Shown: positions 9,202-25,336 of the stretch, piece after piece
How the letters are laid out: the number at the start of each line of letters is the position of its first letter
How positions within the stretch are numbered: the stretch's first letter is position 1
Origin: Streptomyces davaonensis JCM 4913
GTDB taxonomy: Bacteria; Actinomycetota; Actinomycetes; Streptomycetales; Streptomycetaceae
Assembly: GCF_000349325.1 (NCBI RefSeq)
Contig: NC_020504.1
Span: 2,204,053 to 2,268,052, forward strand
DNA length: 64,000 nt
Direction of reading: 5' to 3'
Translations under genes and position numbers: made by a program
The notes under the pieces: generated by a model
Told to the model about the DNA's origin: nothing
The model's input: only the letters and a program-made list of their open reading frames with translations
Databases searched by the model: none

Positions 9202-9285
9202 CCGCACCTCCAGTCAAGGGGCCAGTTTGCGCAGCTTATTCCCTCGACATGCCCTCGTCAGGAGCACCCGCTACCATGCGCGCCC

Positions 9286-10044
9286 ATGAATGACGACGTA
9301 CGCAACATCGTCCTCGGCGTGGTGGCCGCGGGCATCAGTGCCGCGCTCGGCTGGCTGGCCCGGACCTATGTGTGGAAGCGAAAGCTGGCCCGCAAGCAGG
9401 CGTTCTTCGGGCTGCCGGAGAACTCCGAGTCACTCCTCGTCGTCAACCGCGACCCGGCCACCTCCGAACCCGCGGTGCACCGCTTCGACGTGTTCGCGCT
9501 GCTGGAGCTGTCCGCGCTGATCAAGGACTGCGGCGCGCACACCCAGGTGGTCACGCAGGACGCGGTCCATCAGGGTTTCGGCGAGCGCACCGAGTTCTGT
9601 GTGGGCGGCCCGGGCTCCAACCGGCGCATGGCGGCCCATATGTCCGCGATGCTGCCCGGAATACGTGTCAACGTCGACCCCGAACCCGGCCCGGACCGGG
9701 GCGCCTTCCAGATCGGCACCGAGCGCTACCGCCTGGAGGCGGGCGTGGCCGAGTACGTGCTGCTGGCCCGGCTCACCGCGGGCGACCCGAAGCAGAGCCG
9801 TCCGGTCTTCCTCTTCTGCGGCCAGCGCGCCATCACCAACCAGGCCGCGACCCGCTATCTGGCCCGCAACCACGAGCGGCTGGCCCGCAAGTACAAGGAC
9901 AACTCCTTCGTCCTGCTGCTGAAGGTGACCAACTCCCAGGCCTACGGACCGGATGTGGTCGAACTCGTCGGCGATGTCACCCGGACCGCGCAGGCACCCC
10001 TGCCGGCCGCGGCGACTCCCCGGAACTCCCACCGCGCCTCCTGA
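9286..10044 (+). CDS. Membrane-anchored hypothetical protein
   Basis: A 252-residue protein with one N-terminal membrane segment (about residues 8-24, VLGVVAAGISAALGWLA) followed by a basic KRKLARK stretch, which would place the bulk of the protein in the cytoplasm. The remainder is a soluble alpha/beta domain with strands such as SLLVVNRDP and PVFLFCGQRAITN. The C-terminal tail is Ala/Pro-rich. The ATG is preceded by a weak purine stretch. I do not recognise a catalytic motif. The segment TEFCVGGPGSNRRMA, with the glycine-rich GGPGSN, could bind a nucleotide or phosphate. It stands alone between ggt and an exported hydrolase. Confidence 0.72.
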   Translation: MNDDVRNIVLGVVAAGISAALGWLARTYVWKRKLARKQAFFGLPENSESLLVVNRDPATSEPAVHRFDVFALLELSALIKDCGAHTQVVTQDAVHQGFGERTEFCVGGPGSNRRMAAHMSAMLPGIRVNVDPEPGPDRGAFQIGTERYRLEAGVAEYVLLARLTAGDPKQSRPVFLFCGQRAITNQAATRYLARNHERLARKYKDNSFVLLLKVTNSQAYGPDVVELVGDVTRTAQAPLPAAATPRNSHRAS

Positions 10045-10160: not shown

Positions 10161-11714
10161 GTGGGACATCGCAGGGCTCTGCGCACGACCGCCGTGGGCC
10201 TCGTCTCGGCGACCCTCATCGCCGGGATCGGCCCCGTCGCGTCGGCATCTACCGGCGGCATCCGCTTCGTCGACATCACCGGCGACGGCGGTACGACACT
10301 CAAGGCGAACGTCGTCACCCCGGCCGACGCCGACGGCAGCCGCCGCTACCCGCTGCTGGTGTTCCCGACGAGCTGGGGCACACCGCAGGTCCAGTACCTC
10401 GCCCAGGCCCAGAAGCTCGCGAACTCCGGTTACGTCGTGGTCAGTTACAACGTCCGCGGCTTCTGGCAGTCCGGCGGCGAGATAGAAGTGGCGGGTCCGC
10501 CCGACGTGGCCGACGCCTCCCGGGTGATCGACTGGGCGCTCGCCAACACCCCGGCGGACGCGGGGCGGATCGGCATGGGCGGGATGTCGTACGCGGCGGG
10601 CATCAGCCTGCTCACGGCCGCGCAGGACGAGCGGGTCAGGGCGGTCGCGGCGCTCAGCGGCTGGGCCGACCTCATCGATTCGATCTACTCCGGCCGCACG
10701 CAGCACACCCAGGCCGCCGCACTGCTGGACGGCGTGAGCCTGGCCACCGGCAGGCAGAGCGCCGAAGTCAGGGAGATCTTCCACGCCTTGCGGACCTCCG
10801 ACCTGAGCAAGGAGGACGCGATGATCGCCTGGGGAAAGAAACGTTCAGTCACAACCTATCTGGACCAGCTCAACGACAACGCCCCCGCGGTGTTCCTCGC
10901 CAACGCCTGGGGCGACTCGATCTTCCCGCCCAACCAGTACGCGGACTTCTACGACAAGCTCACCGGCCCCAAGCGCCTTCAGTTCCGCCCCGGCGACCAC
11001 GCCACCGCCGAACTCACGGGGTTGCTCGGTCTGCCCAACGACGTCTGGACCGACACCGAGCGCTGGTTCGACCACCATCTGAAGGGCGAGGCCAACGGCA
11101 TCGACGGCGAGCAGCCGGTGCGGCTCAAGTCCCGTTCCAGCGGCGGCTACGAGGGCTACCCGGACTGGAAGTCGGTCGGCGCGACCAGCCGCAAGATCGC
11201 CCTCGCGGGCTCGACCACGATCCGTACGAACGTCAACTCCGGTGCGGACGGCGGTCTTGTGGTGCTCAGCGGCATCCTGGACCAGATCGCCAAGGTGCCC
11301 CCGATGGCGTCCATTCCGCTGCTCCCCCGCCGTTGGGCGGCCGTATGGCAGTCCGAGAAGTACGGATCCGCCCAACAGGTGCGCGGCACCGCCCGGCTGC
11401 ACACCACCCTCACCCCGACCGAGGAGAGCGGCACCCTCGTCGCCTACCTCTACGACGTGGGGCCGCTCGGCCTCGGCAAGCTGGTCAGCAACGCGCCGTA
11501 CACCTTCCACGGGCGTACGCCCGGAGAGCCGTTCGGCGTGGACCTGGAGCTGTTCTCCACGGCCTACGACGTCCCGGCAGGGCATCGCCTCGCCCTGGTC
11601 GTCGACACGGTCGACCCGCTCTATGCCGAGCACAACCCGACCGGCGCGCAGCTGACCTTCTCCTCGCCGGCGAACGACCCGTCCTTCGTGTCGGTCCCGT
11701 TGCGCGAGCAGTGA
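10161..11714 (+). CDS. Exported X-Pro dipeptidyl-peptidase S15 / CocE-type hydrolase
   Basis: A 517-residue alpha/beta-hydrolase with a Sec signal peptide (residues 1 to about 30, ending AxA-like VASAS). The probable triad is Ser143 in GMSYAAG (GxSxxxG elbow), an Asp in NAWGDSIFP and a His in PGDHATAE. The C-terminal half is beta-rich, matching the jelly-roll domain of the PepX/CocE family. It probably acts outside the cell on peptides or esters; the family includes prolyl dipeptidyl peptidases and acyl esterases, and the sequence does not tell which. The GTG at 10161 follows GAGGAG closely. It is single-gene, downstream of a palindrome-rich promoter region. Confidence 0.9.
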   Translation: MGHRRALRTTAVGLVSATLIAGIGPVASASTGGIRFVDITGDGGTTLKANVVTPADADGSRRYPLLVFPTSWGTPQVQYLAQAQKLANSGYVVVSYNVRGFWQSGGEIEVAGPPDVADASRVIDWALANTPADAGRIGMGGMSYAAGISLLTAAQDERVRAVAALSGWADLIDSIYSGRTQHTQAAALLDGVSLATGRQSAEVREIFHALRTSDLSKEDAMIAWGKKRSVTTYLDQLNDNAPAVFLANAWGDSIFPPNQYADFYDKLTGPKRLQFRPGDHATAELTGLLGLPNDVWTDTERWFDHHLKGEANGIDGEQPVRLKSRSSGGYEGYPDWKSVGATSRKIALAGSTTIRTNVNSGADGGLVVLSGILDQIAKVPPMASIPLLPRRWAAVWQSEKYGSAQQVRGTARLHTTLTPTEESGTLVAYLYDVGPLGLGKLVSNAPYTFHGRTPGEPFGVDLELFSTAYDVPAGHRLALVVDTVDPLYAEHNPTGAQLTFSSPANDPSFVSVPLREQ

Positions 11715-12837: not shown

Positions 12838-13278
12838 TCACGCCTCCGCGACCTCGGCGTACAGCTGCGAGAGCTCGGGCACGCCGCTGGAGGCCCACTC
12901 GTGCCCCGACGCGACCACATCGAACTCACGGCCCGAGGAGAGCCGTACGACGGGCTGGCCGTTCGGCCAGATCTCCCACTGGGCGCCGGGGACCGTGCGC
13001 ACGATGACCGTGCCGAGGTACAGACCGGCGTCGTTGCCGAGCCAGGGCAGCACCTCCTCGTCGTCCCGCCAGCGCGGAAGCAGCTGGTCCAGCGCCTCCA
13101 GCGAGGCCGCGGAGTCGTCGAGCCGGATGCCCTCCCGGGCCGCCTGGGAGCGGAGCAGATCACACTCGGAGAGCAGCTCGGCGATGCCCTCGTGAGTGTC
13201 GTCGCCGTCCGCGAACACGGCTACGCCGCGGGCTGTCGAGTGCCGCTTCCGCCAGCCGCCCAGGAAAGGGATGTTCAT
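12838..13278 (-). CDS. DUF6278-type conserved Streptomyces protein
   Basis: A 146-residue cytoplasmic protein starting MNIPFLGGWRKRH, with a C-terminal segment ending in SQLYAEVAEA. I recognise the overall pattern as the Streptomyces family catalogued as DUF6278; the match is from memory. No catalytic motif is visible. The predicted fold is helix (about 30-75) followed by several strands. The ATG at 13278 is preceded by a GAGG-type site and is preferred over a longer, poorly conserved reading. It is divergent from the radical SAM operon, with a 156-bp shared upstream region. Any functional link to that operon is unknown. Confidence 0.75.
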   Translation of the reverse strand: MNIPFLGGWRKRHSTARGVAVFADGDDTHEGIAELLSECDLLRSQAAREGIRLDDSAASLEALDQLLPRWRDDEEVLPWLGNDAGLYLGTVIVRTVPGAQWEIWPNGQPVVRLSSGREFDVVASGHEWASSGVPELSQLYAEVAEA

Positions 13279-13434
13279 ACGCTCAGCCTCGCACCGACCA
13301 TGCCACCGGCACCACCGGCACGCGGGAACCGACCGCCCGGATACCTCTTGCCAAAGCTTATTCATTCTCCGTAGAGTTCATCAGGTCATGAGTTCAACGA
13401 ATGTTGACTTTGGCCTTCCGGGAGGCGAGGACTC

Positions 13435-14751
13435 GTGCGGAAGATCCCATTCCAGGTGAACGAGGGCGGACTGGTCGCCTTACTGCCCAACGGCCATGTG
13501 GAGTTCCTCGCCGACTCGGCGCGCCGGCTGATCCTGCGGCACAACGCCGGACGGCCGGTGTCCGCCGAGGAGTTGATGACCCACGCGCTCAGCGATCCGC
13601 TGGTGACCCTGGACCGGTTCCATCTCTCCGCCCCGGCCATCGCGTTCGTGGAGACCACGAACCTGTGCAACCTGCGGTGCAAGCACTGCTACGCGGACTC
13701 CGCGCTCAAGCGGCCGGACGAGATGTCGACCCCGCGGATCAAGGCCCTGCTGGACGAGTTCGCCGAGATGGGCGTGCTCCAGGTCTTCCTCACCGGGGGC
13801 GAGATCTTCTCGCACCGGGACGCGGTCGAGATCATCCGGCATGCCCGCAGCAAGCCGTTCTCCACCCAGATCTTCACCAACGGGCTGCTCATCACCGAGG
13901 AGAAGCTCGCGGCGATCCCGCCCGGCCAGTCGTTCTTCATCAGCTTCGACACGGCCGACCCCGAGCGCACCGTGCGCGGGCGGATGGACTTCCCCAAGCT
14001 CCAGCACGCCTTCGAGATGATGCGCAAGCACGGCCATGTGTTCCGCACCGCGATCTCCGTCCACCGCAACAACATCCAGGACGCCGAGGAGATCTTCGAA
14101 TGGTGCGCGGAGCACGGCTATCCGCGCCCGCAGTGGCTGGAGACCCACCCCGTGGGCCGCGCCCTGCTCCACCCCGACATGCTGCTGCGCCCCGAGGACG
14201 TCGACGAGGTCTTCGAGGTCTATCGCAGGTGCATGGAGCGGTACTCGACCTCCCCCGACACCGACTCCGGCACCGAACCCGCGAGCGCCCCCGGCACCCA
14301 GCCGGGCCGGCGCGCCGCGGACGAGATCCGCGGGGTGGACACCATCCAGTTCTGCCAGCGCCTCGAACGCGCCGTCGGCCAGGAGAAGTGCGGCCGCTCG
14401 GTGGTCTACGTCAACAGCCGCGGCGACATCTACCCGTGCAGCAACTGCATGTCGGGACAGCTGCACCGGGCCGGGAACCTCGCCGAGCGGTCCTTCGCCG
14501 AGATCTGGGAGAGCGGCTTCGACGCCTTCCGTGACATCCGGTTCAGCGACCACACCGTGTGCGGGAGCTGCCCCGTGGCCAAGGAGGACATCTGGTGCCA
14601 GTTCCGGTGCCCTCCGCTGGCCCGCAATCTCACCGGTGACTCGAAGGGGTGCGGTGCCACCGAGTACCTCCAGGAGTTCATGCTGCGCTCCGGCCGCTAC
14701 TGGCGCGAGCGCAGGCAGCGCAACGTACGCCTGACTCTCACCCCGCGCTAG
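13435..14751 (+). CDS. Radical SAM/SPASM peptide maturase with PqqD-like N-terminus
   Basis: A 438-residue radical SAM enzyme, likely modifying the small peptide encoded just downstream. Residues about 10-65 resemble a PqqD-type peptide-recognition domain (LLPNGHVEFLADSARR, then GRPVSAEEL). The radical SAM core binds its cluster through Cys78, Cys82 and Cys85 (CxxxCxxC), with the GGE motif at 121-123. The C-terminus has a cysteine-rich SPASM region (Cys307, 319, 335, 338, 376, 379, 388, 392, 406) expected to hold auxiliary Fe-S clusters. Codon 16 (13480-13482) is TTA, so translation should depend on the bldA tRNA. The GTG start at 13435 follows GGGAGGCGAGG. The reaction could be a C-C, C-N or thioether crosslink or an epimerisation, which I cannot decide. 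Confidence 0.92.
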   Translation: MRKIPFQVNEGGLVALLPNGHVEFLADSARRLILRHNAGRPVSAEELMTHALSDPLVTLDRFHLSAPAIAFVETTNLCNLRCKHCYADSALKRPDEMSTPRIKALLDEFAEMGVLQVFLTGGEIFSHRDAVEIIRHARSKPFSTQIFTNGLLITEEKLAAIPPGQSFFISFDTADPERTVRGRMDFPKLQHAFEMMRKHGHVFRTAISVHRNNIQDAEEIFEWCAEHGYPRPQWLETHPVGRALLHPDMLLRPEDVDEVFEVYRRCMERYSTSPDTDSGTEPASAPGTQPGRRAADEIRGVDTIQFCQRLERAVGQEKCGRSVVYVNSRGDIYPCSNCMSGQLHRAGNLAERSFAEIWESGFDAFRDIRFSDHTVCGSCPVAKEDIWCQFRCPPLARNLTGDSKGCGATEYLQEFMLRSGRYWRERRQRNVRLTLTPR

Positions 14752-14877
14752 ACGCGGCCCGAGGCCGCACGGCCCGGCCCGCGCCGGGCCCCACCGACCC
14801 CGCTCCCGATGACGTGAGCGGGCCCCGTCCGCGGGCGGCGCGACCGCTGCCGCCCCTCATCGAAGGGAACACGGACA

Positions 14878-15038
14878 TGCCCGAAGAGAAGAAGGTCATC
14901 CGCATCCACCTCGAGCCGGGCGAGGAGGGCGTGACGCTCAGCGCCGTCGGCGCCGCCTCGGCCACCGCGCCCAGCGAGACCCTCCTGGTGGAGGCCACCA
15001 ACATCACCGAGGCCACGATCATCGAGGTCGAGGTCTGA
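14878..15038 (+). CDS. Putative RiPP precursor peptide (53 aa)
   Basis: A 53-residue acidic peptide between two radical SAM genes, with a good ribosome-binding site (GAAGGGAA) before its ATG. The N-terminal half (MPEEKKVIRIHLEPGEEG) is charged and looks like a leader. The C-terminal half is rich in Thr, Ala, Ile, Val and Glu and ends IIEVEV. There is no Cys, Ser is sparse and there is no aromatic residue apart from His11, so thioether or Trp/Tyr crosslinks are excluded. Chemistry on aliphatic or Thr/Glu/Asn side chains or on alpha-carbons is left. Hairpins on both sides may set its expression apart from the enzymes. The precursor role is inferred from size, position and composition. Confidence 0.75.
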
Positions 15039-15171
15039 CCAACTCCCGTCATGTGAAGGACCGGAGCGGAGCAGGACCCCCCGGGCTCGTAGAGGGACGG
15101 GCTCGCGGAAGAGCGCTCGAGGGACCCCCGGGACCGCTGAGGGATCGGAATCGGGGGCGGGCGCTGCACGG

Positions 15172-15204
15172 CCTTCCCGGCCCGTGAGGGACGGGCCGGG
15201 AAGG
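15172..15204 (+). terminator. Strong hairpin between precursor peptide and HemN-like gene
   Basis: CCTTCCCGGCCCGT (15172-15185) pairs perfectly with ACGGGCCGGGAAGG (15191-15204) around a 5-base loop. It lies 130 bp after the peptide stop codon and 70 bp before the next start. There is no T-tract. It could be a partial terminator or an mRNA-stabilising stem that raises peptide levels relative to the downstream enzymes, a common design in RiPP operons. Confidence 0.6.
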
Positions 15205-15273
15205 GCCGCGCGAACGTCAGGCGCGGCGTGACCGACGAACGGGGGCCGACCCCGGACAGGAGACGAGGTCGCG

Positions 15274-16746
15274 ATGAGCAAGGCGGTTGCTTCAGCCGGC
15301 ACGACAGCCGTGCGCCCCGGCACGGGGCTCGCGCGGCTGCTCCAGGAGAACCCGGCCCTCAGGATCGGCCAGGACGACTACAACATCAACGTGACGGCCA
15401 ACTACGGTGACCGGCTCGACCCTTCGGAGGTCGCCGACGCCCTGCGCGCCCACCCCGGCGCCGGCCGCCCCGCGCATCTGTACTTCCATGTGCCGCTGTG
15501 CGCGTACATCTGTCACTTCTGCAATTACGTCAAGCGCAAGGTCCCCGGCGGTGCGGAGGGCGAGCGTGCCTCGCGGGTGTGGACCGATCTGCTGCTGGAG
15601 GAGTCCGGCCGCCGGCTGGCGCACGCGCCCTGGCTCGCCGATGCCCGCATCGAGTCGGTCTATCTGGGCGGCGGCACCGCGTCCCTGCTGGGCACCGAGC
15701 AGTTGGGGCGGCTGGTCGCGCACATGCGGGACAACTACGCGCTGACCGACGACTGCGAGATCTCCTTGGAGGGCAATCCCGACAACTTCCAGCACGACGA
15801 GCTGGCCGAGGCCTGCGCGATCGGCTTCAACCGCTTCAGCGTGGGCGTGCAGTCGCTCCAGAGCGAGGTCAACGCCTTCGCCGGACGCGGCCACGACGCG
15901 GAGATGTCGCTGCGGGCGATCGAGAAACTCCGGGCGACGGGGCGGCCGTTCAACGTCGACATGATGTTCGGGCTGCCGCACCAGACCCCCGCCAAGGTCG
16001 CCGACGACATCCGCCGGCTGACCGATCTGGAGGTGCCCACGATCACCATCTACCGGCTGCGCAACGCGGACCGGGCGAAGATGGGGATCGGCAACCGCGC
16101 GCTGTGGAACGTGGAGAGCGTCCGCGACCGGCTGCGCGAGGAGCACGCCTTCCCGGGTCTCGACGAGACGTACGAGATGCGCGAGGCCATCGTCGAGCTG
16201 CTGCTGGACGCGGGCTACCACCCGAGCCCCTGCGGCTGGTGGAACCGGCCCGGCATCTACCCCGAGGGCAACATCCCGCGCGTCTCGCGCAACAAGTGGC
16301 AGCGCCACGACTCGATGATCGCCTACGGACCCGGCGCCTACGGCTGGCTCACCGGGGACGACGACACCGTCGTGCAGACCCACAACATCGCCGACATCGG
16401 CGGCTACGCCCGGCTGATCCAGAACGGCCCCGAGCTGCCGCTGGCGTTCGGGCGACGGCTGGTGGGCCTGGAGGCGATCGGTCTGGTGCTCGGCTTCAAC
16501 TTCAAGGCCAACCAGCCCATCGACGCGGCACGGTTCCGCCGCCGGTTCGGCGTCGAGCTGTTCCACGACGAGCCGTTCGCCGGGGTGTTCGACGAACTCC
16601 TGGAGCGCGGACTGGTCGAGCCGGTGCCGGGGGCCGCGGAGAGCGTCGTGCCCACGCTGGACGGCGAGGCCCTGCACGAGGAGATCATCAGTGTCTACTT
16701 CCACCAGCGCATCGGCTCCTTCGCCGAAGCCGTGTGCCGGAGGTGA
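15274..16746 (+). CDS. HemN/HemW-like radical SAM enzyme
   Basis: A 490-residue radical SAM protein of the oxygen-independent coproporphyrinogen oxidase-like class. The cluster cysteines are Cys76, Cys80 and Cys83 (CAYICHFC), followed by the YLGGGTAS motif and the EGNPD and FNRFSVGVQS segments of the HemN family. A HemN C-terminal domain is present (about 380-480). True haem enzymes cluster with haem genes. Here the gene sits between a precursor-like peptide and tailoring genes, so a peptide-modifying role is more likely, by analogy with class C radical SAM methylases and related enzymes that bind two SAM molecules. The ATG at 15274 is preceded by GGAGACGAGG. The reaction is not determined. 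Confidence 0.9.
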   Translation: MSKAVASAGTTAVRPGTGLARLLQENPALRIGQDDYNINVTANYGDRLDPSEVADALRAHPGAGRPAHLYFHVPLCAYICHFCNYVKRKVPGGAEGERASRVWTDLLLEESGRRLAHAPWLADARIESVYLGGGTASLLGTEQLGRLVAHMRDNYALTDDCEISLEGNPDNFQHDELAEACAIGFNRFSVGVQSLQSEVNAFAGRGHDAEMSLRAIEKLRATGRPFNVDMMFGLPHQTPAKVADDIRRLTDLEVPTITIYRLRNADRAKMGIGNRALWNVESVRDRLREEHAFPGLDETYEMREAIVELLLDAGYHPSPCGWWNRPGIYPEGNIPRVSRNKWQRHDSMIAYGPGAYGWLTGDDDTVVQTHNIADIGGYARLIQNGPELPLAFGRRLVGLEAIGLVLGFNFKANQPIDAARFRRRFGVELFHDEPFAGVFDELLERGLVEPVPGAAESVVPTLDGEALHEEIISVYFHQRIGSFAEAVCRR

Positions 16747-16750
16747 CGGC

Positions 16751-17476
16751 GTGATCGTGCACCGCCATGTCCAGTGGCGCAGGGATTCCACCGGGGAGCC
16801 GTACCGCATCAGGCGGTCGTTCCCCGCGGGCCCGGCCACCGCGACCGCTGTGCTCGCCGGCCCCGGAAGCGTCTCGTCCGTCGACGGCGAGGGCCGGGAC
16901 GATCTGCTGCTCGACCGGCTGACGCAGCGTCTGGTCGGCGCGGGATGGCAGGTGCTCCAGTGCGACATGCCCGTGCGTGATCCGCTGGTCCCCTTCACCG
17001 ACAAGGAGTTCCAGGCCCGGGTGGAGCGGCTGGACCATCTCCTGCGCGGCCACCGGCATCTGATGACCGGACCGCTGACCCTGGTCGGCTTCTCGCTGGG
17101 CGGCCTGGCCCTGCTGGAGCTGCTGGAGTCCGGCACTCCCCCGCGCACCGACCGGGTGGTCCTGGTGGGCACCGTCATGGAGGAGGACGTCTTCCTCGCC
17201 TCGCGCGTCCCCGCCGTCGAACTGGTCTACGGCAGCCGCGACCTGATCGGCTATCTGATCGAGGACACCTCGAACTCGGGCGCGAAGCCGCAGCCCATCG
17301 TCTTCGACCCGGGCATGTACGCCGACTGGTCCGCGCGCCACGTCATCGGCTCGCCCACGCCCGAGGTCCGGGTCCACATGCTCGAAGGGCTCGGGCACAC
17401 CCTGCATCCCTGCGGTCCGGGCCCCGCCCGTGACCCACTGCCGGAGCTCACCTCCCTGGTGGGCATCGCCTCATGA
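16751..17476 (+). CDS. Alpha/beta-hydrolase in the radical SAM cluster
   Basis: A 241-residue alpha/beta-hydrolase with the nucleophile elbow GFSLGG, a likely acidic residue in YGSRD and a late His in LGHTLHP. It could release the modified peptide from its leader or hydrolyse an ester; both are guesses. The GTG at 16751 starts just after the HemN-like stop, and its Shine-Dalgarno GGAGGTGA lies over that stop codon, so translation is tightly coupled. There is no signal peptide, so it acts in the cytoplasm. No dedicated RiPP protease family is otherwise visible in this cluster, making this the best candidate for leader removal. Confidence 0.85.
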   Translation: MIVHRHVQWRRDSTGEPYRIRRSFPAGPATATAVLAGPGSVSSVDGEGRDDLLLDRLTQRLVGAGWQVLQCDMPVRDPLVPFTDKEFQARVERLDHLLRGHRHLMTGPLTLVGFSLGGLALLELLESGTPPRTDRVVLVGTVMEEDVFLASRVPAVELVYGSRDLIGYLIEDTSNSGAKPQPIVFDPGMYADWSARHVIGSPTPEVRVHMLEGLGHTLHPCGPGPARDPLPELTSLVGIAS

Positions 17477-17515
17477 CGTCGCGTCAGCTCACAGCACCAA
17501 AGGAAAGGGAACGAC

Positions 17516-18313
17516 ATGCCCGCGAGTGAGACTCTCTCCAGCCGCCGGTTCGACAAGATCGCCAACAACTTCGCCACCAGCGAGGTGCACAGGTCGAGCC
17601 CGACGATGGCCGCCCTGCACGAGACGCTCGGGCCGCAGACGGGCAGCGCGATCTGCGACGTGGCCTGTGGCGCGGGCCATCTGGCGCTGTCCTTCGCCGA
17701 GGAGTACCCGGCCCGGCTGGTGGGCGTCGACCCGGCGCCCTCGATGCTGGAGTCGTTCCGTGGCCTGGCCGCCGAGCGGCAGGTGACGGTGGAGACCGCG
17801 CAGGCCGTCGCCGAGGAACTGCCTTTCCCGGACGCCTCGTTCGACCTCGTGGTGTCGCGGCTCGCCCCGCACCACTTCCAGGACATGCCGAAGGCGGTCG
17901 GTGAGATGACCCGGCTGCTGCGGCCCGGCGGGCGGCTGGCGGTGATCGATCTGGAGGGCCACACCGACCCGGTGATCGACGCGCTCAACCATGAGCTGGA
18001 GATCCTGCACGACCCCACCCATGTGCGCAGCTACACCCTCGACGAGTGGGTCGAGTTCTTCCAGGGCGCCGGGCTCAACGTCCCGGTCGCCCGCGGCGGT
18101 CAGGCGGAGAGCCGTACCGGCGTGCCCGTCAAGCGCTGGTGCGAGATCGCCTCCTCCGGCGCCGAGGCGGAGGCCGCGATCCGGCGGCGGCTCGCCGAGG
18201 CCCCCGAGGCGCACCGGGAGGCGCTCGGCATCCGGCAGGAGGGCGAGGAGTTCTTCATCCCCGTGCGCACCTGCATGCTGATCGGGGTCAAGCCGCTGAG
18301 CGGGGTGCGCTGA
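17516..18313 (+). CDS. Class I SAM-dependent methyltransferase
   Basis: A 265-residue Rossmann-fold methyltransferase of the UbiE/Methyltransf_11 type. Motif I is ICDVACGAGH (about 47-55), an acidic residue follows in VGVDPAP, and the post-motif segment LPFPDASFDLVVSRLAPHHF is typical. It probably methylates the peptide product at N, O or C-terminal carboxylate. AAAGGAAAGGGA precedes the ATG. The next gene begins one base after this stop codon, so the two are probably coupled. The C-terminal quarter (Glu/Ala-rich helix, then FFIPVRTCMLIGVKPL) matches the small-molecule methyltransferase group, not rRNA enzymes. The target is unknown. Confidence 0.9.
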   Translation: MPASETLSSRRFDKIANNFATSEVHRSSPTMAALHETLGPQTGSAICDVACGAGHLALSFAEEYPARLVGVDPAPSMLESFRGLAAERQVTVETAQAVAEELPFPDASFDLVVSRLAPHHFQDMPKAVGEMTRLLRPGGRLAVIDLEGHTDPVIDALNHELEILHDPTHVRSYTLDEWVEFFQGAGLNVPVARGGQAESRTGVPVKRWCEIASSGAEAEAAIRRRLAEAPEAHREALGIRQEGEEFFIPVRTCMLIGVKPLSGVR

Positions 18314-18314
18314 C

Positions 18315-19160
18315 ATGCCCGTCATCAGGCTGTTCTCCCCGGACGCGAGTCCCGGCCCCACCGCCCTGGAACAACTCGCCGCCGACATCACCGAGTTGCT
18401 CGGGCTGCCCGCGGGCCACTGCTGGGTGTGGTGGCAGCGCCTCGAACCCGGCACCTACCACCGGCCCGAGTGGCGCGCCGCGGACGCTCCCCCGGCCCCG
18501 GTCGGGTTCGTGGTGTGCAAGGAGAGCTACAGCAAGGACCAGGTGGGCGCGCTGCTCCGGCTGCTCCAGAGCAGGCTCTCGGAGCTGCTGAACGTCCCGG
18601 CCGACGAGATCTTCCTGACCGTCCAGCGGGCCGTCACGGGTGAGTTGCTGGTCCGCGACGAGGTGTGGTTCGCGCACCTGGAGGAGCCCCGGCCGAACGC
18701 CGTCACCGACCTGGTGCCGATCGGGCGCGTCCACAGCGACCGCAGCGATCTGTCCGACGACTACTGGGGCGACGTGACCTCGGTGATCCGGCTGGACGGC
18801 GGGCGGTTCGCCCCGGAGGCGCTGCTCGGCCTGGACACCTTCTCCCATCTGGAGGTCGTCTTCCATTTCCACCGGGTGGCCCCGGAGAAGATCCACACCG
18901 GCGCCCGGCATCCGCGGGGCAACCCCGACTGGCCGCGGACCGGGATCTTCGCCCAGCGTGCGAAGAACCGCCCCAACCGCATCGGGGTCTCGCGGTGCAG
19001 GCTGCTGAAGGTGGACGGGCTCGATGTGCATGTGCGCGGCCTGGACGCCGTGGACGGCACGCCCGTGCTCGATCTCAAGCCGTATCTCACGCAGTTCGGG
19101 CCGCGCGAGGCCGTCGTACAGCCGGAGTGGGTGGACGAGCTGATGCGGGACTACTACTGA
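18315..19160 (+). CDS. Tautomerase-like / TrmO (TsaA) fusion protein
   Basis: A 281-residue protein with two parts. Residues 1 to about 117 look like a pair of tautomerase-superfamily beta-alpha-beta units. The first keeps Pro2 as the potential N-terminal catalytic proline after Met removal (MPVIRLF), and the second starts around GFVVCKESY. Residues about 133-260 match the TrmO/TsaA/YaeB family: IGRVHSDRSD, LDTFSHLEVVFHFHR, TGARHPRGNPDWP and GIFAQRAKNRPNRIG. TrmO of E. coli is a SAM-dependent N-methyltransferase for the t6A nucleoside of tRNA. Here the domain sits in a peptide-tailoring operon, so a repurposed methyltransferase is plausible. The ATG follows the preceding stop by one base. Both the fusion and the context are unusual. 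Confidence 0.82.
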   Translation: MPVIRLFSPDASPGPTALEQLAADITELLGLPAGHCWVWWQRLEPGTYHRPEWRAADAPPAPVGFVVCKESYSKDQVGALLRLLQSRLSELLNVPADEIFLTVQRAVTGELLVRDEVWFAHLEEPRPNAVTDLVPIGRVHSDRSDLSDDYWGDVTSVIRLDGGRFAPEALLGLDTFSHLEVVFHFHRVAPEKIHTGARHPRGNPDWPRTGIFAQRAKNRPNRIGVSRCRLLKVDGLDVHVRGLDAVDGTPVLDLKPYLTQFGPREAVVQPEWVDELMRDYY

Positions 19161-19209
19161 CACGTCCACCGGACTGACCCGAACCGAACCTCCGCCGATC
19201 GGAGCCGAC

Positions 19210-20481
19210 ATGAAGAAGTCCGCCGAGCGGGAGCGGCTGCCGCGCAGCGCGCTCGTGCTGCTGGCCGCGGTGTTCGTGGACGCCCTCGGCAGCGGGCTCT
19301 ACATGGCGGTCTCCGTCGTCTTCCTCACCCGCTACCTGGACCTGGGCAGCAGTGAGGTGGGGCTCGGTCTGGGCGTCGCGGGCGCGGTGTCCTTCGCGCT
19401 GCTGGTGCCCACCGGGATCCTGGCGGACCGGGCCGGTCCGCGCCGCATGCTGATCGCCGCCCATGTGACCCGGGCGGCGCTGCTCGCGTGTTACCCCTTC
19501 GCTTCCGGGTTCGTGCCGTTCCTGTGCGTGGTCTCCCTGCTCGCGGTGGCCGACCGCGCCGCCTCGCCGCTGGTGCAGGGCCTGTTCGGGGCGGCCGTGG
19601 AGGCCGGGCAGCGGGTGCGGGCGATGGGGATGGCCCGTTCGCTTCAGAACCTGGGTCTCTCGCTCGGCGGTCTCGCTGCCGCCGGGGCGCTGCTGTGGGA
19701 CAGCGACGGGGTGTATCTGGCCGTCGTGTACGGCAACTCGCTGTCGTTCGTGCTCGCCGCGGCGCTGGTGACCCGGCTCAGGGCGGGCGGCGCGGGCGGG
19801 GGCCGGCCATTGCCGTGGCGGCGTCGCCTCGCGGTCTTCCGGGACCGCCGGTTCACCGTGCTGACCTGCCTCAACTCCGTGGTGAGCCTGCATGTGACGG
19901 TGCTGACGGTGGGCATTCCGCTGTGGGTGCTGGCCCATGACGAGCTGCCCCGCTCGGTGATCGCCTGGACGCTGGTGCTCAACACGGTCGTGGTGGTGCT
20001 GTTCCAGGTCCGGGCGACGCGCGGGATCGAGACGGCCGAGGACGGCGGCCGTGCGCTCAGGCTGAGCGGGCTGCTGCTCGCCGTGGGCTGCTGCGCCCTC
20101 GCCGCCACCGGGGCGCTGCCGGCGGCCGCGGCGGTCGCGGTGCTGCTCGGCGCGGTGGCCTTCCAGGCGTTCGCGGAGATGCACCAGCAGGCGGGCGCCT
20201 GGGCGATCTCCTACGATCTCGCGCCCGAGGACCGCCGCCAGGTCTATCTGGCTTTCTTCAGCCTGGGCAACGCCGCCCGCAACACCTACGGTCCGCTCGT
20301 CGTCACGTTTCTCGTGGTGCAGCGCGGGGCCGTCGGCTGGCTGCTGCTCGGTGCCCTGGCGCTCGGCTCCGGTGCCTGGGCGGCGCGAGCCGGCCGGCCG
20401 TCCGCCGCTCCCGGTGCGCCGCCCGCGCCGGCCGTATCGCTGACCGATGTCCAAGGAGAGACCCATGGCACCCACCCCTGA
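19210..20481 (+). CDS. MFS transporter, likely product exporter
   Basis: A 423-residue major facilitator with about 12 membrane helices. The family A-motif is seen between helices 2 and 3 as GILADRAGPRR, and a long Ala/Pro-rich C-terminal tail follows. A CGGAG site precedes the ATG at 19210. Its last 17 bases overlap the start of the FAD monooxygenase gene, and the monooxygenase ribosome-binding site lies inside it. The most likely role is export of the mature product or self-protection, since no other transporter belongs to this operon. Substrate direction is inferred from context, not from sequence. Confidence 0.9.
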   Translation: MKKSAERERLPRSALVLLAAVFVDALGSGLYMAVSVVFLTRYLDLGSSEVGLGLGVAGAVSFALLVPTGILADRAGPRRMLIAAHVTRAALLACYPFASGFVPFLCVVSLLAVADRAASPLVQGLFGAAVEAGQRVRAMGMARSLQNLGLSLGGLAAAGALLWDSDGVYLAVVYGNSLSFVLAAALVTRLRAGGAGGGRPLPWRRRLAVFRDRRFTVLTCLNSVVSLHVTVLTVGIPLWVLAHDELPRSVIAWTLVLNTVVVVLFQVRATRGIETAEDGGRALRLSGLLLAVGCCALAATGALPAAAAVAVLLGAVAFQAFAEMHQQAGAWAISYDLAPEDRRQVYLAFFSLGNAARNTYGPLVVTFLVVQRGAVGWLLLGALALGSGAWAARAGRPSAAPGAPPAPAVSLTDVQGETHGTHP

Positions 20482-22093
20482 GCAGTCCGTCATCATCGTC
20501 GGAGCGGGACCCACCGGACTGGCCCTGGCCTGTGAACTGGCCGCGGCCGGAGTCTCCTGCACCGTGCTGGAGCGCCGTACGAAGCCGTCCGCGCAGTCCC
20601 GTGCCATGGCGCTGTACAGCAGGACGCTGGAGGTGCTCGATCTGCGCGGGCACGCCGACGCGCTGACCGCCGTGGGCCGGCCGGTCGGCCGGATGCGGCC
20701 CGCGCAGGGCGCGTCGATCGACTTCACCGGCATCGACAGCCGCTTCCCGGCCCTCTACGTGGTCCCGCAGAGCCGCACCGAGGAGGCGCTCCAGCAGCGC
20801 GCGATCGATCTCGGAGTCATCGTGCAGCGCGGCGCCGAGGTGTTCGGCGTGGAGCAGGACGCCACGGGTGTACGGCTGCTTGTGCGCACCGAGTCCGGTG
20901 AGTGGGAGGAGACCGCGGACTACGTGGTGGGCTGCGACGGCGCCCACAGCGCGGTGCGCGAACTGTCCGGCATCTCCTTCCGCGGCCGTACGTACGACAT
21001 CGCGCCGATCCTCGCCGACGTCCGTCTCGAGACTCCGCCGCAGGACGACGTGGTGCTGCTGTCCGGGGGCGGCGCGTTGATGGTGTCGGTGCCGTTCGGG
21101 GACGGGCTGTACCGGGTGGCGGTGATGCACCGGGACCACCCGTGGACGCGGGACGAGGTGACGCTGGAGGAGCTGGCCGAGCGGCTGACGGAGGTGCTGG
21201 GCTTCGACCCGAAGCCGCACGACCCGCAGTGGCTGGCCCGGTTCAAGATCCACCAGCGGCTCGCCGACCAGTACCGCACCGGCCGGGTGCTGCTGGCGGG
21301 CGACGCGGCGCATCTGCACTCGCCGCTCGGCGGGCAGGGCCTCAACCTCGGTATCCAGGACGCCGTCAACCTCGGCTGGAAGCTGGCGGCCACGATCCAG
21401 GGCTGGGCGCCGGCCGGGCTGCTCGACACCTACCAGTCCGAGCGGCGCCCGCAGGCGCAGCGGATCCTCAAGGCCACCGACCACGCCACTCGGATGGCCA
21501 CGCACCCCTCCCCCGTGGTCAGCCATCTGCGCCGGGTGATGCTGTCCCGGCTGCTCGGGCGGCGCCGGATCAACAAGGTCGCCGGTGAGGCGATCTCCGG
21601 GCTGCGCGCCGGATACGCGGGCCGGGGCCGTCCGGTCGCGCTGGGCGGCGCCCGGCTGCGCCCCGGCCAGCGGGTGCCGGATCTGGCGGTGCCGCAGGCG
21701 GAGGGTGCGCCGGTGCGGCTGTACGAGCTGATGCGCGACGGCCGGTTCCTGCTGCTCGACCTGGGCGCGGACGGTACGGCGGCCGCGGTCTGTGAGTCCT
21801 GGGGCTCGCGGGTCTGCCCGGTCCGGGTGGCCGGACCGGTTCCGCAACTCTCCGGCGTCAGCACAGTGTTGGTCCGCCCGGACGGCTACGCTGCCTGGGT
21901 GGACAGCACGTCGTCGACCACGGGCCGCGAGGAGCGCGTACGGCAGGCGCTGCACCGCTGGTGCGGCACCGAGGGCCCGGCCGGCGGGCGCGGCACGTCC
22001 CCCGCCGCCGAGACCGCGACCCCGGCCCGGCGGGCCCAGGAGGAGACCGCCGAAGCCGCCGACTCGGAACCGGCCCGCGCCGACCGCACGTGA
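20465..22093 (+). CDS. FAD-dependent aromatic-type monooxygenase
   Basis: A 542-residue class A flavoprotein monooxygenase (PHBH/TetX-like). Motifs in order are IVGAGPTGLALACELAAAG (FAD ADP-binding, residues 11-29), the DG motif VVGCDGAHSAVRELSG and the GD motif LLAGDAAHLHSPLGGQGLN. A C-terminal thioredoxin-like domain (about 400-490) is as found in phenol-hydroxylase and polyketide hydroxylase relatives. It uses NAD(P)H and O2 to hydroxylate a substrate in the cytoplasm. The ATG at 20465 with AAGGAGAG upstream was chosen over an earlier in-frame start. It may act on the peptide or on the product of the nearby type III polyketide synthase. A substrate with an aromatic ring would favour the second. 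Confidence 0.92.
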   Translation: MAPTPEQSVIIVGAGPTGLALACELAAAGVSCTVLERRTKPSAQSRAMALYSRTLEVLDLRGHADALTAVGRPVGRMRPAQGASIDFTGIDSRFPALYVVPQSRTEEALQQRAIDLGVIVQRGAEVFGVEQDATGVRLLVRTESGEWEETADYVVGCDGAHSAVRELSGISFRGRTYDIAPILADVRLETPPQDDVVLLSGGGALMVSVPFGDGLYRVAVMHRDHPWTRDEVTLEELAERLTEVLGFDPKPHDPQWLARFKIHQRLADQYRTGRVLLAGDAAHLHSPLGGQGLNLGIQDAVNLGWKLAATIQGWAPAGLLDTYQSERRPQAQRILKATDHATRMATHPSPVVSHLRRVMLSRLLGRRRINKVAGEAISGLRAGYAGRGRPVALGGARLRPGQRVPDLAVPQAEGAPVRLYELMRDGRFLLLDLGADGTAAAVCESWGSRVCPVRVAGPVPQLSGVSTVLVRPDGYAAWVDSTSSTTGREERVRQALHRWCGTEGPAGGRGTSPAAETATPARRAQEETAEAADSEPARADRT

Positions 22094-22153: not shown

Positions 22154-22330
22154 AGGGCCTGTTCTGAGTTCCCCGTCGTTCGCGCGGAGCGCGGGCGCAG
22201 CGGCGTTCGGTGCGTGCCCTCGGTGTGCGGTGTCGCTGGTCATGTGGCGGAGCCACCTGTCCAGCGGCGCCGTGCGGCGAGGGTGCGTGCCGGGCGTCGC
22301 TGCGCAGGCGGGGAACTCAGAACAGGCCCT
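22154..22330. repeat. ~180-bp palindromic dispersed element, copy 2
   Basis: It begins AGGGCCTGTTCTGAG and ends CTCAGAACAGGCCCT. It has the same orientation and core (ATGTGGCGGAGCCACCTG) as copy 1 at 7215-7395. Stem pairs differ from copy 1 on both arms in a compensating way: CTGGAG/CTCCAG becomes CTGAG/CTCAG, and CGTAGG/CCTGCG becomes CGCTGG/CCAGCG. It lies between the monooxygenase and the first TetR gene. The remaining sequence between those genes is only short leader DNA. Confidence 0.8.
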
Positions 22331-22370
22331 AGGGGGCCTGTGCGGACCAGACGTGGAAAGGCTCGTCGCC

Positions 22371-22940
22371 GTGGCACAACAGCTGATGCCGACGCGTTCC
22401 CAGCGGACCCGGGAGGCCATACTGCGCGCGGCCCGGATGCACTTCGCGGCCGACGGCTACCAGCGGTCGACGATCAGGGCGATCGCGGCGACGGCGTCCA
22501 TCGACCCTTCCATGGTCATGCGCTACTTCGGCAGCAAGGAGCAGCTGTTCGACGCGGCCCTCGACGTGGACCTGGGTTTACCGGACCTCACCGGTACGCC
22601 CATGGAACGGCTGCCGCAGGAGCTGATCACGCACTTCCTCGCGCCCTGGGAGGACGACCTCGACGAGGGCTCGATGCGGCTGCTGCTGCGCTGTGCGGCG
22701 ACCAACGAGCGGGCGGCGGAGCATCTTCGGCGGATGCTGCACGAGCAGTTCACCAGCAGTCTGCGCGGCGCCCTGGGTCCGGAGCGCGCGGACGCGTGCA
22801 GCGGGGTGCTGGCGGCGCAGCTGCTGGGCGTGGCGTTCACCCGCTACGTTCTGCGGCTGCGGCCGATCGCCGATCTGCCGGTGGCGGCGCTGGCGGATCT
22901 GGTGGCGCCCTCACTGCGTACGGTACTGGCGGCGGAGTGA
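22371..22940 (+). CDS. TetR-family regulator 1 (TTA-containing)
   Basis: A 189-residue TetR regulator. The DNA-binding helix-turn-helix lies at about 25-60 (STIRAIAATASIDPSMVMRYFGSKEQLF), with a helical ligand domain behind it. The GTG at 22371 has GGAAAGG nine bases upstream. A longer reading would run back into the palindromic element and is rejected. Codon 70 (22578-22580) is TTA, so it should be translated only when the bldA tRNA is available. It probably represses the adjoining biosynthetic or export genes until a product or intermediate binds. It is followed by a second TetR gene of different sequence. Confidence 0.9.
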   Translation: MAQQLMPTRSQRTREAILRAARMHFAADGYQRSTIRAIAATASIDPSMVMRYFGSKEQLFDAALDVDLGLPDLTGTPMERLPQELITHFLAPWEDDLDEGSMRLLLRCAATNERAAEHLRRMLHEQFTSSLRGALGPERADACSGVLAAQLLGVAFTRYVLRLRPIADLPVAALADLVAPSLRTVLAAE

Positions 22941-23000
22941 ACAGGATGGGTCGGAGTAAGGAAGAAGCCAAGACTCCGCATGTCCATGGTCTGACAAGTT

Positions 23001-23075
23001 CCGACCTGATAGAGTATTTTCATTATACAGTGAATTACTTGTTCCGAAACCCCCCATCCAAAGTGCAGTGATCTC
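23001..23075 (+). promoter_or_regulatory. AT-rich promoter region of the second TetR gene
   Basis: The most AT-rich stretch of this neighbourhood holds TATACA (23024-23029) as a likely -10 box and an imperfect palindrome around AATT (ACA..AATT..TGT, 23027-23042). CAAGTTCCGA and TTGTTCCGAA occur as near-direct repeats on its two sides. One or both TetR proteins may bind here. The leader would be about 40 bases, without a strong ribosome-binding site. Confidence 0.4.
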
Positions 23076-23795
23076 ATGAAACCCAGGCGCTCAGATGATT
23101 CCGCTTCTACGTCCCGGGGGGCCGACAAGGCCGACCCGCCCGACGATTCGCAGACCCAGCTGAGCCGTCCGAAGCGCGCCCGCAGCGGGCGCCGCCCGGG
23201 GGAGAGCGGCACCCGGGAGCAGATCCTCGAATCCGCGCTCCACCTCTTCGCCGACCGCGGTTACGCGCGCACCACCATCCGCGCCATCGCCGAGAGCGCC
23301 AAAGTGGACCCCGCGCTGGTGCACCACTTCTTCGGCAACAAGGAGGGGGTGTTCGACGCCGCGGTCAACTCGTCCTTCAGTGTCTCGACATCCTTCGACG
23401 AGACACCATTCGGGGATCCCACCTCCACCCAGGCATCCTGGATCGCGCAGACGTACTTCTCCTTCTGGGAGAACGAGAGGACGCGCTACGCCATGACCGC
23501 CATCTACCGGGCGGGCATGGCCGACAGTGGCACCTCGGGGGTGCTCCGCAGGCGGATCGAGTCAAGTACCAAGTCCTGGTCGAACGCCTCCGGTTACCGG
23601 GACCTGCCCGACGCCGAGATCCGTGCCGCACTGGCCGCCAGCCATCTCGCCGGGCTCGCCGTCATGCGCTACATCCTCCAGCTCCAACCCCTGGCCGGCA
23701 TGGAGTTCGCCGAATTCCTGGCCTGGGTGACGCCGGCGCTGGAGGTGCGGCTGTCGACCACACTCACCCCCGCCAACCCCGACGAATCGCGCTGA
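23076..23795 (+). CDS. TetR-family regulator 2
   Basis: A 239-residue TetR regulator with a 40-residue charged, Arg-rich N-terminal extension before the HTH (about 55-90, ARTTIRAIAESAKVDPALVHHFFGNKEGVF). The ligand domain (about 100-230) is unrelated to that of the preceding TetR gene beyond the family fold. The HTH of the two proteins is similar in pattern. It is expressed from its own AT-rich promoter, and a strong hairpin follows the stop codon. It may control the type III polyketide synthase that converges on it, or the radical SAM operon. Neither is shown by the sequence. Confidence 0.9.
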   Translation: MKPRRSDDSASTSRGADKADPPDDSQTQLSRPKRARSGRRPGESGTREQILESALHLFADRGYARTTIRAIAESAKVDPALVHHFFGNKEGVFDAAVNSSFSVSTSFDETPFGDPTSTQASWIAQTYFSFWENERTRYAMTAIYRAGMADSGTSGVLRRRIESSTKSWSNASGYRDLPDAEIRAALAASHLAGLAVMRYILQLQPLAGMEFAEFLAWVTPALEVRLSTTLTPANPDESR

Positions 23796-23856: not shown

Positions 23857-24918
23857 TCAGACGCCGTCGCGCCAGACGGTCTTCACCGCCGTCAGGCAAA
23901 CCCCCGGGCCCACCGCGACCATGAGGCCGCGCTGGCCCGGCTGCGGGCGCTTGGCAAAGGTCCGTTCCATGACCTCCAGTACCGACGCGGCTCCCAGGTT
24001 GCCCAGGTCGCGCAGCGAGTCACGGGCCAGTCCGAACATCTCCGGCGGGCAGTCGAGACCGTCCGCGAGGCAGTCCAGGATCCGGGGGCTTCCGGTGTGC
24101 GAGACGACGAAGTCGGGGGCACCGTCAGTGCCGACGGGCGCGGTCGCCCTCAGCCATTTCCGCAGGCCCACGAGGAGGCCGCCGACCGACTCCGCCAGGC
24201 GGGGGGAGTTGTGCATGTGCAGCCCGTCGCCCTCGGGACCACCGCCCACCACGTCCCGGCCGCTGACGTCCAGGCACTCCCAGGAACCCTCGATCTCCAT
24301 GTGCGGTCCCTTGGCTCGATCCCGGACCACGCAGGCGCCGCCCCCGTCACCGAGGATGGCCTTGAAGATCATCCCGTCCATGCCCGTGTCACCGGGATGC
24401 AGGTAGTGGCTCAGAGCGTCCGCGCACACCACCAGCACGATGGCGTCCGGTCGGGCCCTCACCAGCTCCGCGGCCGTGGAGACGGCGAAAACACCGCCGG
24501 CACAGCCCAGCTGACTCACTGGCATGCGCCGGACGGACGGGGACAGACCGAGCCGCTCCATCAGCAGGACGTCGAGTCCGGGAACGGTGTGTCCGGTGGC
24601 GCTGGACACGACGAGGGCGGTGACGTCCTCCGGCTTCAGCCCGGCCTCCCGCAGCGCCGCACGGCCGGCACGCTCCGCCAGGTCGAGGCAATCCAGCAGA
24701 TGCCGGCTGGTGGACTCGCGGAGCGGACGGTCCGTGAGGAACTGCTGGTCCAGCGGCCGGGTGTACCAGCGGGTGCGGACTCCGCTGCGCCGCATGACCT
24801 GGTGGATCGCGCGCAGCCTGGGGTGATCGGGATACAACTCGCCGATGCGTTCGATGAGTTCGTCGGTGGTCACCTGATGACGAGGCAGCGCGACAACCGG
24901 AGCGGTGACGACAGGCAT
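23857..24918 (-). CDS. Type III polyketide synthase (chalcone synthase-like)
   Basis: A 353-residue homodimeric ketosynthase that builds a small polyketide from acyl-CoA and malonyl-CoA. The catalytic triad is present: Cys139 (QLGCAGG), His274 (VVSHTGSP) and Asn307 (LGNLGAAS). The C-terminal GVCLTAV segment matches the conserved end of the family. The sequence is not that of the usual tetrahydroxynaphthalene synthase RppA, and no P450 partner is adjacent. The product could be a pyrone, resorcinol or phloroglucinol type. The ATG at 24918 has GGAGAT three bases upstream; a longer reading upstream has no family similarity. It converges on tetR2 across a terminator and is the only biosynthetic gene on this strand here. 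Confidence 0.94.
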   Translation of the reverse strand: MPVVTAPVVALPRHQVTTDELIERIGELYPDHPRLRAIHQVMRRSGVRTRWYTRPLDQQFLTDRPLRESTSRHLLDCLDLAERAGRAALREAGLKPEDVTALVVSSATGHTVPGLDVLLMERLGLSPSVRRMPVSQLGCAGGVFAVSTAAELVRARPDAIVLVVCADALSHYLHPGDTGMDGMIFKAILGDGGGACVVRDRAKGPHMEIEGSWECLDVSGRDVVGGGPEGDGLHMHNSPRLAESVGGLLVGLRKWLRATAPVGTDGAPDFVVSHTGSPRILDCLADGLDCPPEMFGLARDSLRDLGNLGAASVLEVMERTFAKRPQPGQRGLMVAVGPGVCLTAVKTVWRDGV

Positions 24919-25336
24919 GACATCTCCAAAGCAGTGTGAAGGAAGCTGATGAAGGAGGCACTGGTCCCGTCCGGCCCGGTGCTCGGGCGCCCGGGACACG
25001 CACAACTTCGCCGCTTCTTGGCTCTGGCCAGGAAATCCGCGCATGCCGAACACTCCCCCCGGTTTCTGACGGTGCTGTCCTTCGCTGGCGCCTGAGAGGC
25101 GCGTCTCACCGAACGCGCGCACGACAAATCGGCGCGCGACGACGCATGGCGATGCTGAAACGACGTGTCGGAGGCGTCCCTCACTCGGGCACTACCCAGG
25201 GTCGACCTCTGAACAAGACGTTACGAGTGGGGAGTTGACTCCAACTAGAGCGAAATTCAACGCACATGGAATTTAATCCGAGAGGACAGCCGAGAGTCAC
25301 GGCCACCGGGATCACACCGAGAAAGGGCCGACCGCC
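24919..25336. other. 418-bp intergenic region between type III PKS and whiB-like genes
   Basis: It contains the divergent upstream regions of both genes. Visible structure includes GGCGCCTGAGAGGCGC (25087-25102) and overlapping short palindromes GGAGT-TG-ACTCC and AGTTG-ACTC-CAACT near 25233-25246. An AT-richer segment (25240-25280) upstream of the whiB-like start could hold its promoter. No gene is supported. Confidence 0.5.

Follow-up and report, generated by a model that had tools for sequence, protein, structure and literature searches.

In the Tvg pathway of Halomonas, a SPASM-family radical S-adenosylmethionine (SAM) enzyme makes cyclopropylglycine and the product is a poly-cyclopropylglycine, one of the ribosomally synthesized and post-translationally modified peptides (RiPPs) (PMC9062424). 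The cyclopropane of CC-1065 is made by a HemN-like enzyme and a class I methyltransferase, the two-component cyclopropanase C10P/C10Q (PMC6050322), and the HemN-family enzymes NosN and NocN act on the indolic side ring of a thiopeptide (PMC12871812). Here we compare these systems with a gene cluster of Streptomyces davaonensis JCM 4913, located in a window of 64,000 nucleotides (the whole stretch analysed; contig NC_020504.1, positions 2,204,053 to 2,268,052). An original prediction, made from the letters of this window, had placed eight plus-strand genes at 13435..22093: a SPASM radical SAM enzyme, a 53-residue peptide, a HemN-like radical SAM enzyme, a hydrolase, a methyltransferase, a tautomerase/TrmO fusion, an MFS transporter and a flavin adenine dinucleotide (FAD) monooxygenase. 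The open reading frames (ORFs) of all eight were found at these places and on this strand (Table 1). We consider it likely that the peptide is a RiPP precursor and the SPASM enzyme its maturase.

The resemblance to each described system is partial. As in Tvg, a SPASM-family enzyme would act on a repeated, Cys-free, Val-Gly-containing core, but the Tvg core is a repeated TVGG, whereas the present family has GITLxxVGAAS. The partners of the Tvg enzyme are a dioxygenase and two transporter/peptidase proteins, and the five-gene set is without HemN-like, TrmO and tautomerase genes (PMC9062424). In combining a HemN-like enzyme and a class I methyltransferase, the cluster recalls C10P/C10Q; there, however, the substrate is a small molecule and not a ribosomal peptide (PMC6050322), and a related cluster in Caballeronia has a class I methyltransferase match of only 28% over 160 residues. 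With NosN and NocN (PMC12871812) the cluster shares a HemN-family enzyme in a RiPP pathway and the residues for two SAM molecules, but the radical SAM domain alone aligns by sequence. We regard the cyclopropanes of CC-1065 and Tvg as precedents, and they are no evidence for the product of this cluster.

The nearest known structures of the SPASM enzyme belong to RiPP maturases. SkfB, SuiB and CteB (6efn, 5v1s and 5wgg, the last of which we take to be CteB) have the same radical SAM and SPASM fold, with identities of 15-23% to the cluster enzyme. SkfB and CteB form thioethers on Cys, in agreement with the title of 5wgg; the core described here is normally without Cys. The original prediction recognised no described RiPP class, and our searches of family libraries and open papers had the same outcome: no described class was recognised, and among the titles and abstracts listed for the open-licence literature searched there was no paper on this gene set (subscription papers, which may include a description, were mostly outside the search). 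A term search in the main text of a review of RiPP methyltransferases found TrmO, SPOUT and tautomer absent there (PMC11285071).

Precursor peptide family

The predicted 53-residue peptide proved to be encoded by a real gene. It was present in 10/10 other Streptomyces loci and was under coding selection, with a median ratio of nonsynonymous to synonymous substitution rates (dN/dS) of 0.09 among 11 Streptomyces sequences; of their 55 pairs, the 54 with dS > 0.05 were used (largest single ratio 0.63). The ORF is therefore not a chance one.

A search with this peptide alone returned 9 close relatives, and a three-peptide profile 86 rows at E <= 10, including sequences from Photorhabdus, Massilia, Mesorhizobium and Caballeronia and many metagenomic ones. 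P0200 and P0202-P0206 (E 0.67 to 6.6) looked unrelated and were dropped; P0201 (E 0.85), an apparent Streptomyces fragment, was not counted. The alignment held 73 rows, 61 of them two-repeat forms, and left out P0175 and P0177 (N-extended) and P0195, P0196, P0197 and P0199 (short). Nine precursors were compared with NCBIfam and ten with Pfam; the few hits were at chance level, and none came near a cut-off.

The main feature, beyond the view of the original prediction, is this wider family with its presumed core in two copies. In most relatives outside the actinomycetes the peptide has about 80 residues and contains the core segment twice, the second copy at the C-terminus. Their consensus is G-[IV]-T-L-[AS]-x-V-G-A-A-[ST], with G, L, G, A and A invariant in both repeats of 61/61 sequences; the V is invariant in the second repeat and is replaced in the first by A in four and by I in one of the 61. 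In an internal repeat test, no shuffle of 1000 reached the score of any of the six two-repeat forms tested, whereas 726 and 774 of 1000 did so for the Streptomyces (P0001) and Actinacidiphila (P0132) forms, which therefore keep one core copy. The 46-residue forms P0132 and P0182 (Streptomyces sp.) have A at the V position, and AAA, SAA or ESS replaces GAA in some Streptomyces-type forms; since A and I substitutions occur, the core Val is not strictly required. Likewise, the core is normally Cys-free as predicted, but P0171 (S. bobili) and the fragment P0201 carry Cys in and just after it (TLCAVGAAS...DDCS), so that the absence of Cys is a tendency. In the 61 two-repeat homologues of the alignment, the presumed leader motif reads R-[IVL]-[HN]-[LMF]-[DE], its first residue being R in 59 and K in 2; Actinacidiphila has RVHLD and Caballeronia RIHLD.

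Two similar segments, each of which can be read as strand-turn-strand, could also form a small beta protein, and the small ORF would then be an unmodified folded protein, a carrier or a complex subunit. We find this quite improbable: the second segment was not detected in the tested Streptomyces and Actinacidiphila forms, the second core stands at the C-terminus of the two-repeat forms, and the co-conserved enzyme has RiPP maturases as its nearest structures.

SPASM enzyme and its pairing with the peptide

The cysteines of the radical SAM cluster (C78, C82 and C85, a CX3CX2C motif) and of the SPASM domain (C319, C335, C376, C379, C388, C392 and C406) are invariant or at least 90% conserved in 62 homologues. 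An AlphaFold2 (AF2) model of the enzyme (mean predicted local distance difference test, pLDDT, 92) came nearest to SkfB and SuiB, and the structural alignments begin at residue 2 (SkfB) and residue 1 (SuiB), spanning the N-terminal region. Among the SPASM maturase models of NCBIfam (PqqE, mycofactocin, StsB, WgkB, SkfB and others), none was above its cut-off in the best 25 of 59 families.

A search that scored the 7999 candidates sharing most words listed at least 120 SPASM proteins at E <= 1e-60. Orthologues of about 60% identity occur in Geobacillus, Bacillus, Paludifilum, Photorhabdus, Roseovarius, Mesorhizobium, Massilia and a Dehalococcoidia bacterium, and so in Bacillota, Pseudomonadota and Chloroflexota. 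A more distant group at 45-50% identity (near 47%), which includes Taibaiella (P0116-P0122, P0124, P0125), was also seen; most of its members are without a precomputed SPASM domain.

A small ORF stands beside the maturase in 12/12 loci (10 Streptomyces and Caballeronia by tblastn, Actinacidiphila by reading), and we judge the pairing of peptide and maturase well supported. We also compared contig sizes, taking the longest contig per entry: 28 of 66 precursors, set against 72 of the 120 SPASM proteins listed, lay on contigs of identical size. With contigs > 2 kb, 27/41 precursors shared the exact contig size with a SPASM protein, while in a control of 2000 trials, with each precursor contig size shifted by 1-10%, the mean number of coincidences was 0.2 and the maximum 3. 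This is indirect evidence that precursors and SPASM enzyme occur together outside Streptomyces as well.

Co-conservation of the gene set

Scanning genomes with the SPASM protein of the window gave 12 loci, 10 of them in Streptomyces, one in Actinacidiphila and one in Caballeronia, and the gene neighbourhoods were read in all three genera. Their genes are co-conserved, which was the check proposed with the original prediction. All eight were found in identical order in 10/10 other Streptomyces loci, with SPASM identities of up to 96% at the nearest named loci. The eight are not a fixed group, however, since the other two loci differ. Actinacidiphila has the SPASM, peptide, HemN-like, hydrolase, methyltransferase, tautomerase, TrmO and MFS genes; in Caballeronia, the order is SPASM, peptide, hydrolase, tautomerase, TrmO and HemN-like, followed by the weak methyltransferase match. 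The monooxygenase, matched in 10/10 Streptomyces loci, had no match in either locus, and the MFS transporter none in Caballeronia. That two phyla share a gene set in different orders is our strongest evidence for a joint function. The flavin monooxygenase, the transporter and the class I methyltransferase seem to have been added in particular lineages.

HemN-like radical SAM enzyme

The cluster enzyme reaches neither the HemN nor the HemW cut-off (TIGR00538, 113.2 of 324.95; TIGR00539, 121.3 of 205.4 bits). Another protein of the same genome passes the HemW cut-off (237 vs 205.4 bits), and the cluster protein is therefore not the housekeeping haem enzyme. Neither this check nor that of co-conservation, both named with the original prediction, refuted the predicted pathway. 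Pfam listed Radical_SAM as the one domain, and the fourth cysteine of E. coli HemN is absent, with Tyr85 in its place.

The residues that hold two SAM molecules have been named in the structure of NocN (PMC12871812). Mapped through a HMMER alignment counted by hand, which ends at residue 264 and covers the radical SAM domain, Tyr34, Tyr96, Arg153, Arg171, Asp196 and Arg230 of NocN are kept and Ser225 is replaced by Thr; the seven positions are invariant in five homologues. At the place of Tyr96, which is Y130 in the cluster enzyme, E. coli HemN has His. The aligned part does not reach the catalytic Tyr276 of NocN. Since the SAM-holding residues are kept, the alignment supports a two-SAM, class C-like enzyme.

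We also considered whether the two radical enzymes might act on haem or another tetrapyrrole, the peptide being incidental. The top NCBIfam score of the HemN-like protein is to the anaerobic haem-degrading methyltransferase ChuW/HutW (TIGR04107), the SPASM protein scores against the AhbD and NirJ models, and some names given by the Joint Genome Institute (JGI) read AdoMet-dependent heme synthase. These scores are far under the cut-offs, however (164.4 bits of 400; 94.9 of 500), no haem gene was among the Pfam-scanned neighbours, and outside Streptomyces, too, the SPASM enzyme is found together with the precursor family. We give such an activity very little credence.

Tailoring and transport genes

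Pfam and NCBIfam back the labels that had been predicted for the two radical SAM enzymes, the methyltransferase, the MFS transporter and the FAD monooxygenase. For the alpha/beta-hydrolase, the profile match stayed sub-threshold (E 0.0067); in its favour, S135, D184 and H236, which we read as a catalytic triad, are invariant in 13/13 homologues, and the alpha/beta-hydrolase fold is seen in the model (pLDDT 81). In the fold search, many esterases, lipases, dienelactone hydrolases and thioesterases were nearly tied, and for this reason no substrate class is proposed. Its start is uncertain: 4/10 Streptomyces loci are without an in-frame upstream ATG, GTG or TTG. The best solved-structure match of the class I methyltransferase is YcgJ.

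In the predicted tautomerase/TrmO fusion, the profile match is stronger for the TrmO half. The TrmO_N domain passes the Pfam cut-off (91.8 vs 26.8), and the cut-off of the TrmO tRNA methyltransferase model, TIGR00104, is not reached (80.8 of 93.25). The tautomerase profile is weak, its best match (E 0.0024; 18.2 of 22 bits) being obtained with the free-standing Caballeronia homologue, but Pro-1 was found in 3/3 lineages read. Tautomerase and TrmO are separate genes in Actinacidiphila and Caballeronia, so that the Streptomyces protein is a fusion. TrmO-type enzymes are otherwise known for tRNA modification.

Table 1. Features of the cluster, with positions in the window and the basis of each assignment
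Feature	Position	Strand	Basis
Radical SAM/SPASM enzyme, presumed peptide maturase	13435..14751	+	PF04055 E 6.9e-22, PF13186 E 3e-10
N-terminal region of SPASM enzyme, PqqD/RiPP recognition element (RRE)-like	13435..13629	+	Model: three strands, two helices; third helix not seen
53-residue precursor peptide	14877..15038	+	10/10 Streptomyces loci, dN/dS, Pseudomonadota homologues
Leader motif R-I-H-L-E, presumed recognition strand	14901..14915	+	Conserved in aligned homologues
Presumed core G-V-T-L-S-A-V-G-A-A-S, single copy	14928..14960	+	Alignment and shuffle test
HemN-like radical SAM enzyme, predicted class C-like (two-SAM) methylene transferase	15274..16746	+	PF04055; C76/C80/C83
Alpha/beta-hydrolase, presumed triad S135/D184/H236	16691..17476	+	Invariant residues; model fold
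Class I SAM methyltransferase	17516..18313	+	PF08241 (Methyltransf_11) E 1.2e-25; Actinacidiphila homologue 56%
Tautomerase-like domain, N-terminal Pro-1	18315..18716	+	Domain end approximate, from TrmO-only match of Actinacidiphila locus (L009)
TrmO_N-type SAM methyltransferase domain	18717..19160	+	PF01980 E 4.4e-26; fused with tautomerase (ORF 18315-19160)
MFS transporter, presumed exporter	19210..20481	+	PF07690 (MFS_1); match in 11/12 loci
FAD-dependent aromatic-hydroxylase-type monooxygenase	20447..22093	+	PF01494 (FAD_binding_3) E 2.9e-86
TetR-family regulator, possible local regulator	22230..22940	+	PF00440, PF17920; 76-92% match in 8/10 Streptomyces loci

Proposed pathway

On balance, our data favour, as had been predicted, a RiPP-like pathway that uses two radical SAM enzymes, and one of an undescribed class; the proposed chemistry is the weakest part of the following scheme. 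The 53-residue peptide would be the precursor, and the N-terminal region of the SPASM enzyme would hold its leader strand R-I-H-L-E. Class C enzymes add carbon to an sp2 centre (PMC12871812), and because they need such a carbon the SPASM enzyme is placed first: it may carry out a first radical reaction, a dehydrogenation or the formation of a C-C bond, on the aliphatic core, whose boundary with the leader is a presumed one. The HemN-like enzyme, with two SAM bound, would then add a SAM-derived methylene to the unsaturated product, resulting in a C-methylation or a cyclopropane. The hydrolase may cleave or release an acyl group, the Pro-1 tautomerase may isomerise the product and the TrmO-type enzyme may methylate it. 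In Streptomyces, the class I methyltransferase, the MFS exporter and the flavin monooxygenase would be additions to these steps, and where the core is duplicated each precursor could yield two product units.

A different fate of the peptide has to be weighed against this. In the PqqA and mycofactocin systems, the peptide is a scaffold of which residues are crosslinked, excised and turned into a small molecule. The same could hold for one or two core residues here: the hydrolase, the tautomerase, the methyltransferases and the aromatic-hydroxylase-type monooxygenase resemble small-molecule tailoring, a core present twice would agree with the excision of two units from each precursor, and PqqE and the mycofactocin maturase are among the profiles against which the SPASM enzyme scores, in every case far under cut-off. 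The Streptomyces peptide, however, is without an aromatic residue except His, and about 11 conserved core residues are long for the excision of one or two. No peptidase family was matched by any cluster protein in Pfam, a result that tells against excision and against our own scheme alike. We regard a scaffold role as rather unlikely, though it deserves to be kept in mind.

Further points weigh against the modified-peptide pathway that we prefer. The cluster has no known product or modified peptide. At 10161-11714 there is an S15 peptidase gene, but it is part of a flank that is common to cluster-free relatives. The core side chains have no sp2 carbon until another enzyme makes one, and HemN, which is not a methylase, binds two SAM too; among the seven positions, Y130 alone separates HemN from the methylase. 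The PqqD-like N-terminus of the original prediction is suggested by the modelled strands and helices and by the range of the SkfB and SuiB alignments, but residues 1-66 had no Pfam hit at E <= 0.1. As to the family, the profile search (E <= 10) gave no named precursor row from Bacillota, although SPASM orthologues are named there, and 14/41 precursors on contigs > 2 kb had no SPASM size match, the link outside the read neighbourhoods resting on contig sizes. The neighbourhoods read, and with them the evidence on the HemN-like, hydrolase, tautomerase and TrmO genes, are those of Streptomyces, Actinacidiphila and Caballeronia.

More tentatively, we propose as one possibility a cross-phylum RiPP class whose two radical enzymes would form methylene-derived rings, such as cyclopropanes, on aliphatic residues of the duplicated GITLxxVGAAS core, and for which a TrmO-type enzyme and a Pro-1 tautomerase would have been recruited to a peptide. 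If the pathway is as proposed, it would define an unassigned RiPP class whose precursors, found in Streptomyces, Pseudomonadota and metagenomes, belong to no annotated family. It would also offer a candidate route by which two radical enzymes modify aliphatic residues, and TrmO-type methyltransferases and tautomerases might have roles on peptides. Since the duplicated core gives short defined substrates, the chemistry is directly testable.

Distribution and flanking genes

SPASM profile searches of sampled genomes (the samples overlap, and a few top candidates per genome were scored) found orthologues in 1/394 genomes of the class (E <= 1e-40), the hit being the window's own genome, and in 3/392 of the genus (E <= 1e-60), the window's own included. 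At this latter threshold, two samples around Caballeronia gave 1/274 and 1/399, in each case the Caballeronia genome itself, a sample around E. coli gave 0/382, and plasmids gave no match to the SPASM or the HemN-like protein. Viral contigs yielded one 27% hit. In a looser scan, 90/100 genomes had some SPASM match at E <= 1e-3; among the matches listed, all were other radical SAM proteins of 23-37% identity, except for the window's own and a 40-residue remnant in a genome with a decayed copy (G040). What is left there, at the same site, are pieces of the SPASM, hydrolase and tautomerase-TrmO genes and, as a weak match, of the MFS gene. This decayed copy lies in L056 (G040:C1:8373000-8392000), at about 8157-9298, between flanks common to the window. 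The pattern is one of sporadic presence with at least one loss.

The left edge of the cluster is sharp in Streptomyces. The DUF6278 gene next to it (window 12838-13365) occurs in 23/41 genomes, the window's own counted, and stretches of about 16 kb around it, some cut short, were compared from 10 of the 22 others. Beside DUF6278 in these 10 were an S15 peptidase in 9, an ATP-binding cassette (ABC) ATPase in 7 and a gamma-glutamyltranspeptidase in 5. On its other side, about 10 kb of the 10 stretches held no window gene, from the SPASM gene to an aldehyde dehydrogenase (29850-31169), at E <= 1e-8.

Downstream of the cluster lies a tandem pair of TetR-family regulator genes (window 22230-23795). 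It is followed by a minus-strand gene resembling chalcone synthase/ketoacyl synthase III (23857-25122), also found in 4/10 Streptomyces loci (L001, L002, L003 and L007), and by a predicted ORF of 669 residues (25337-27346) with an N-terminal WhiB domain.

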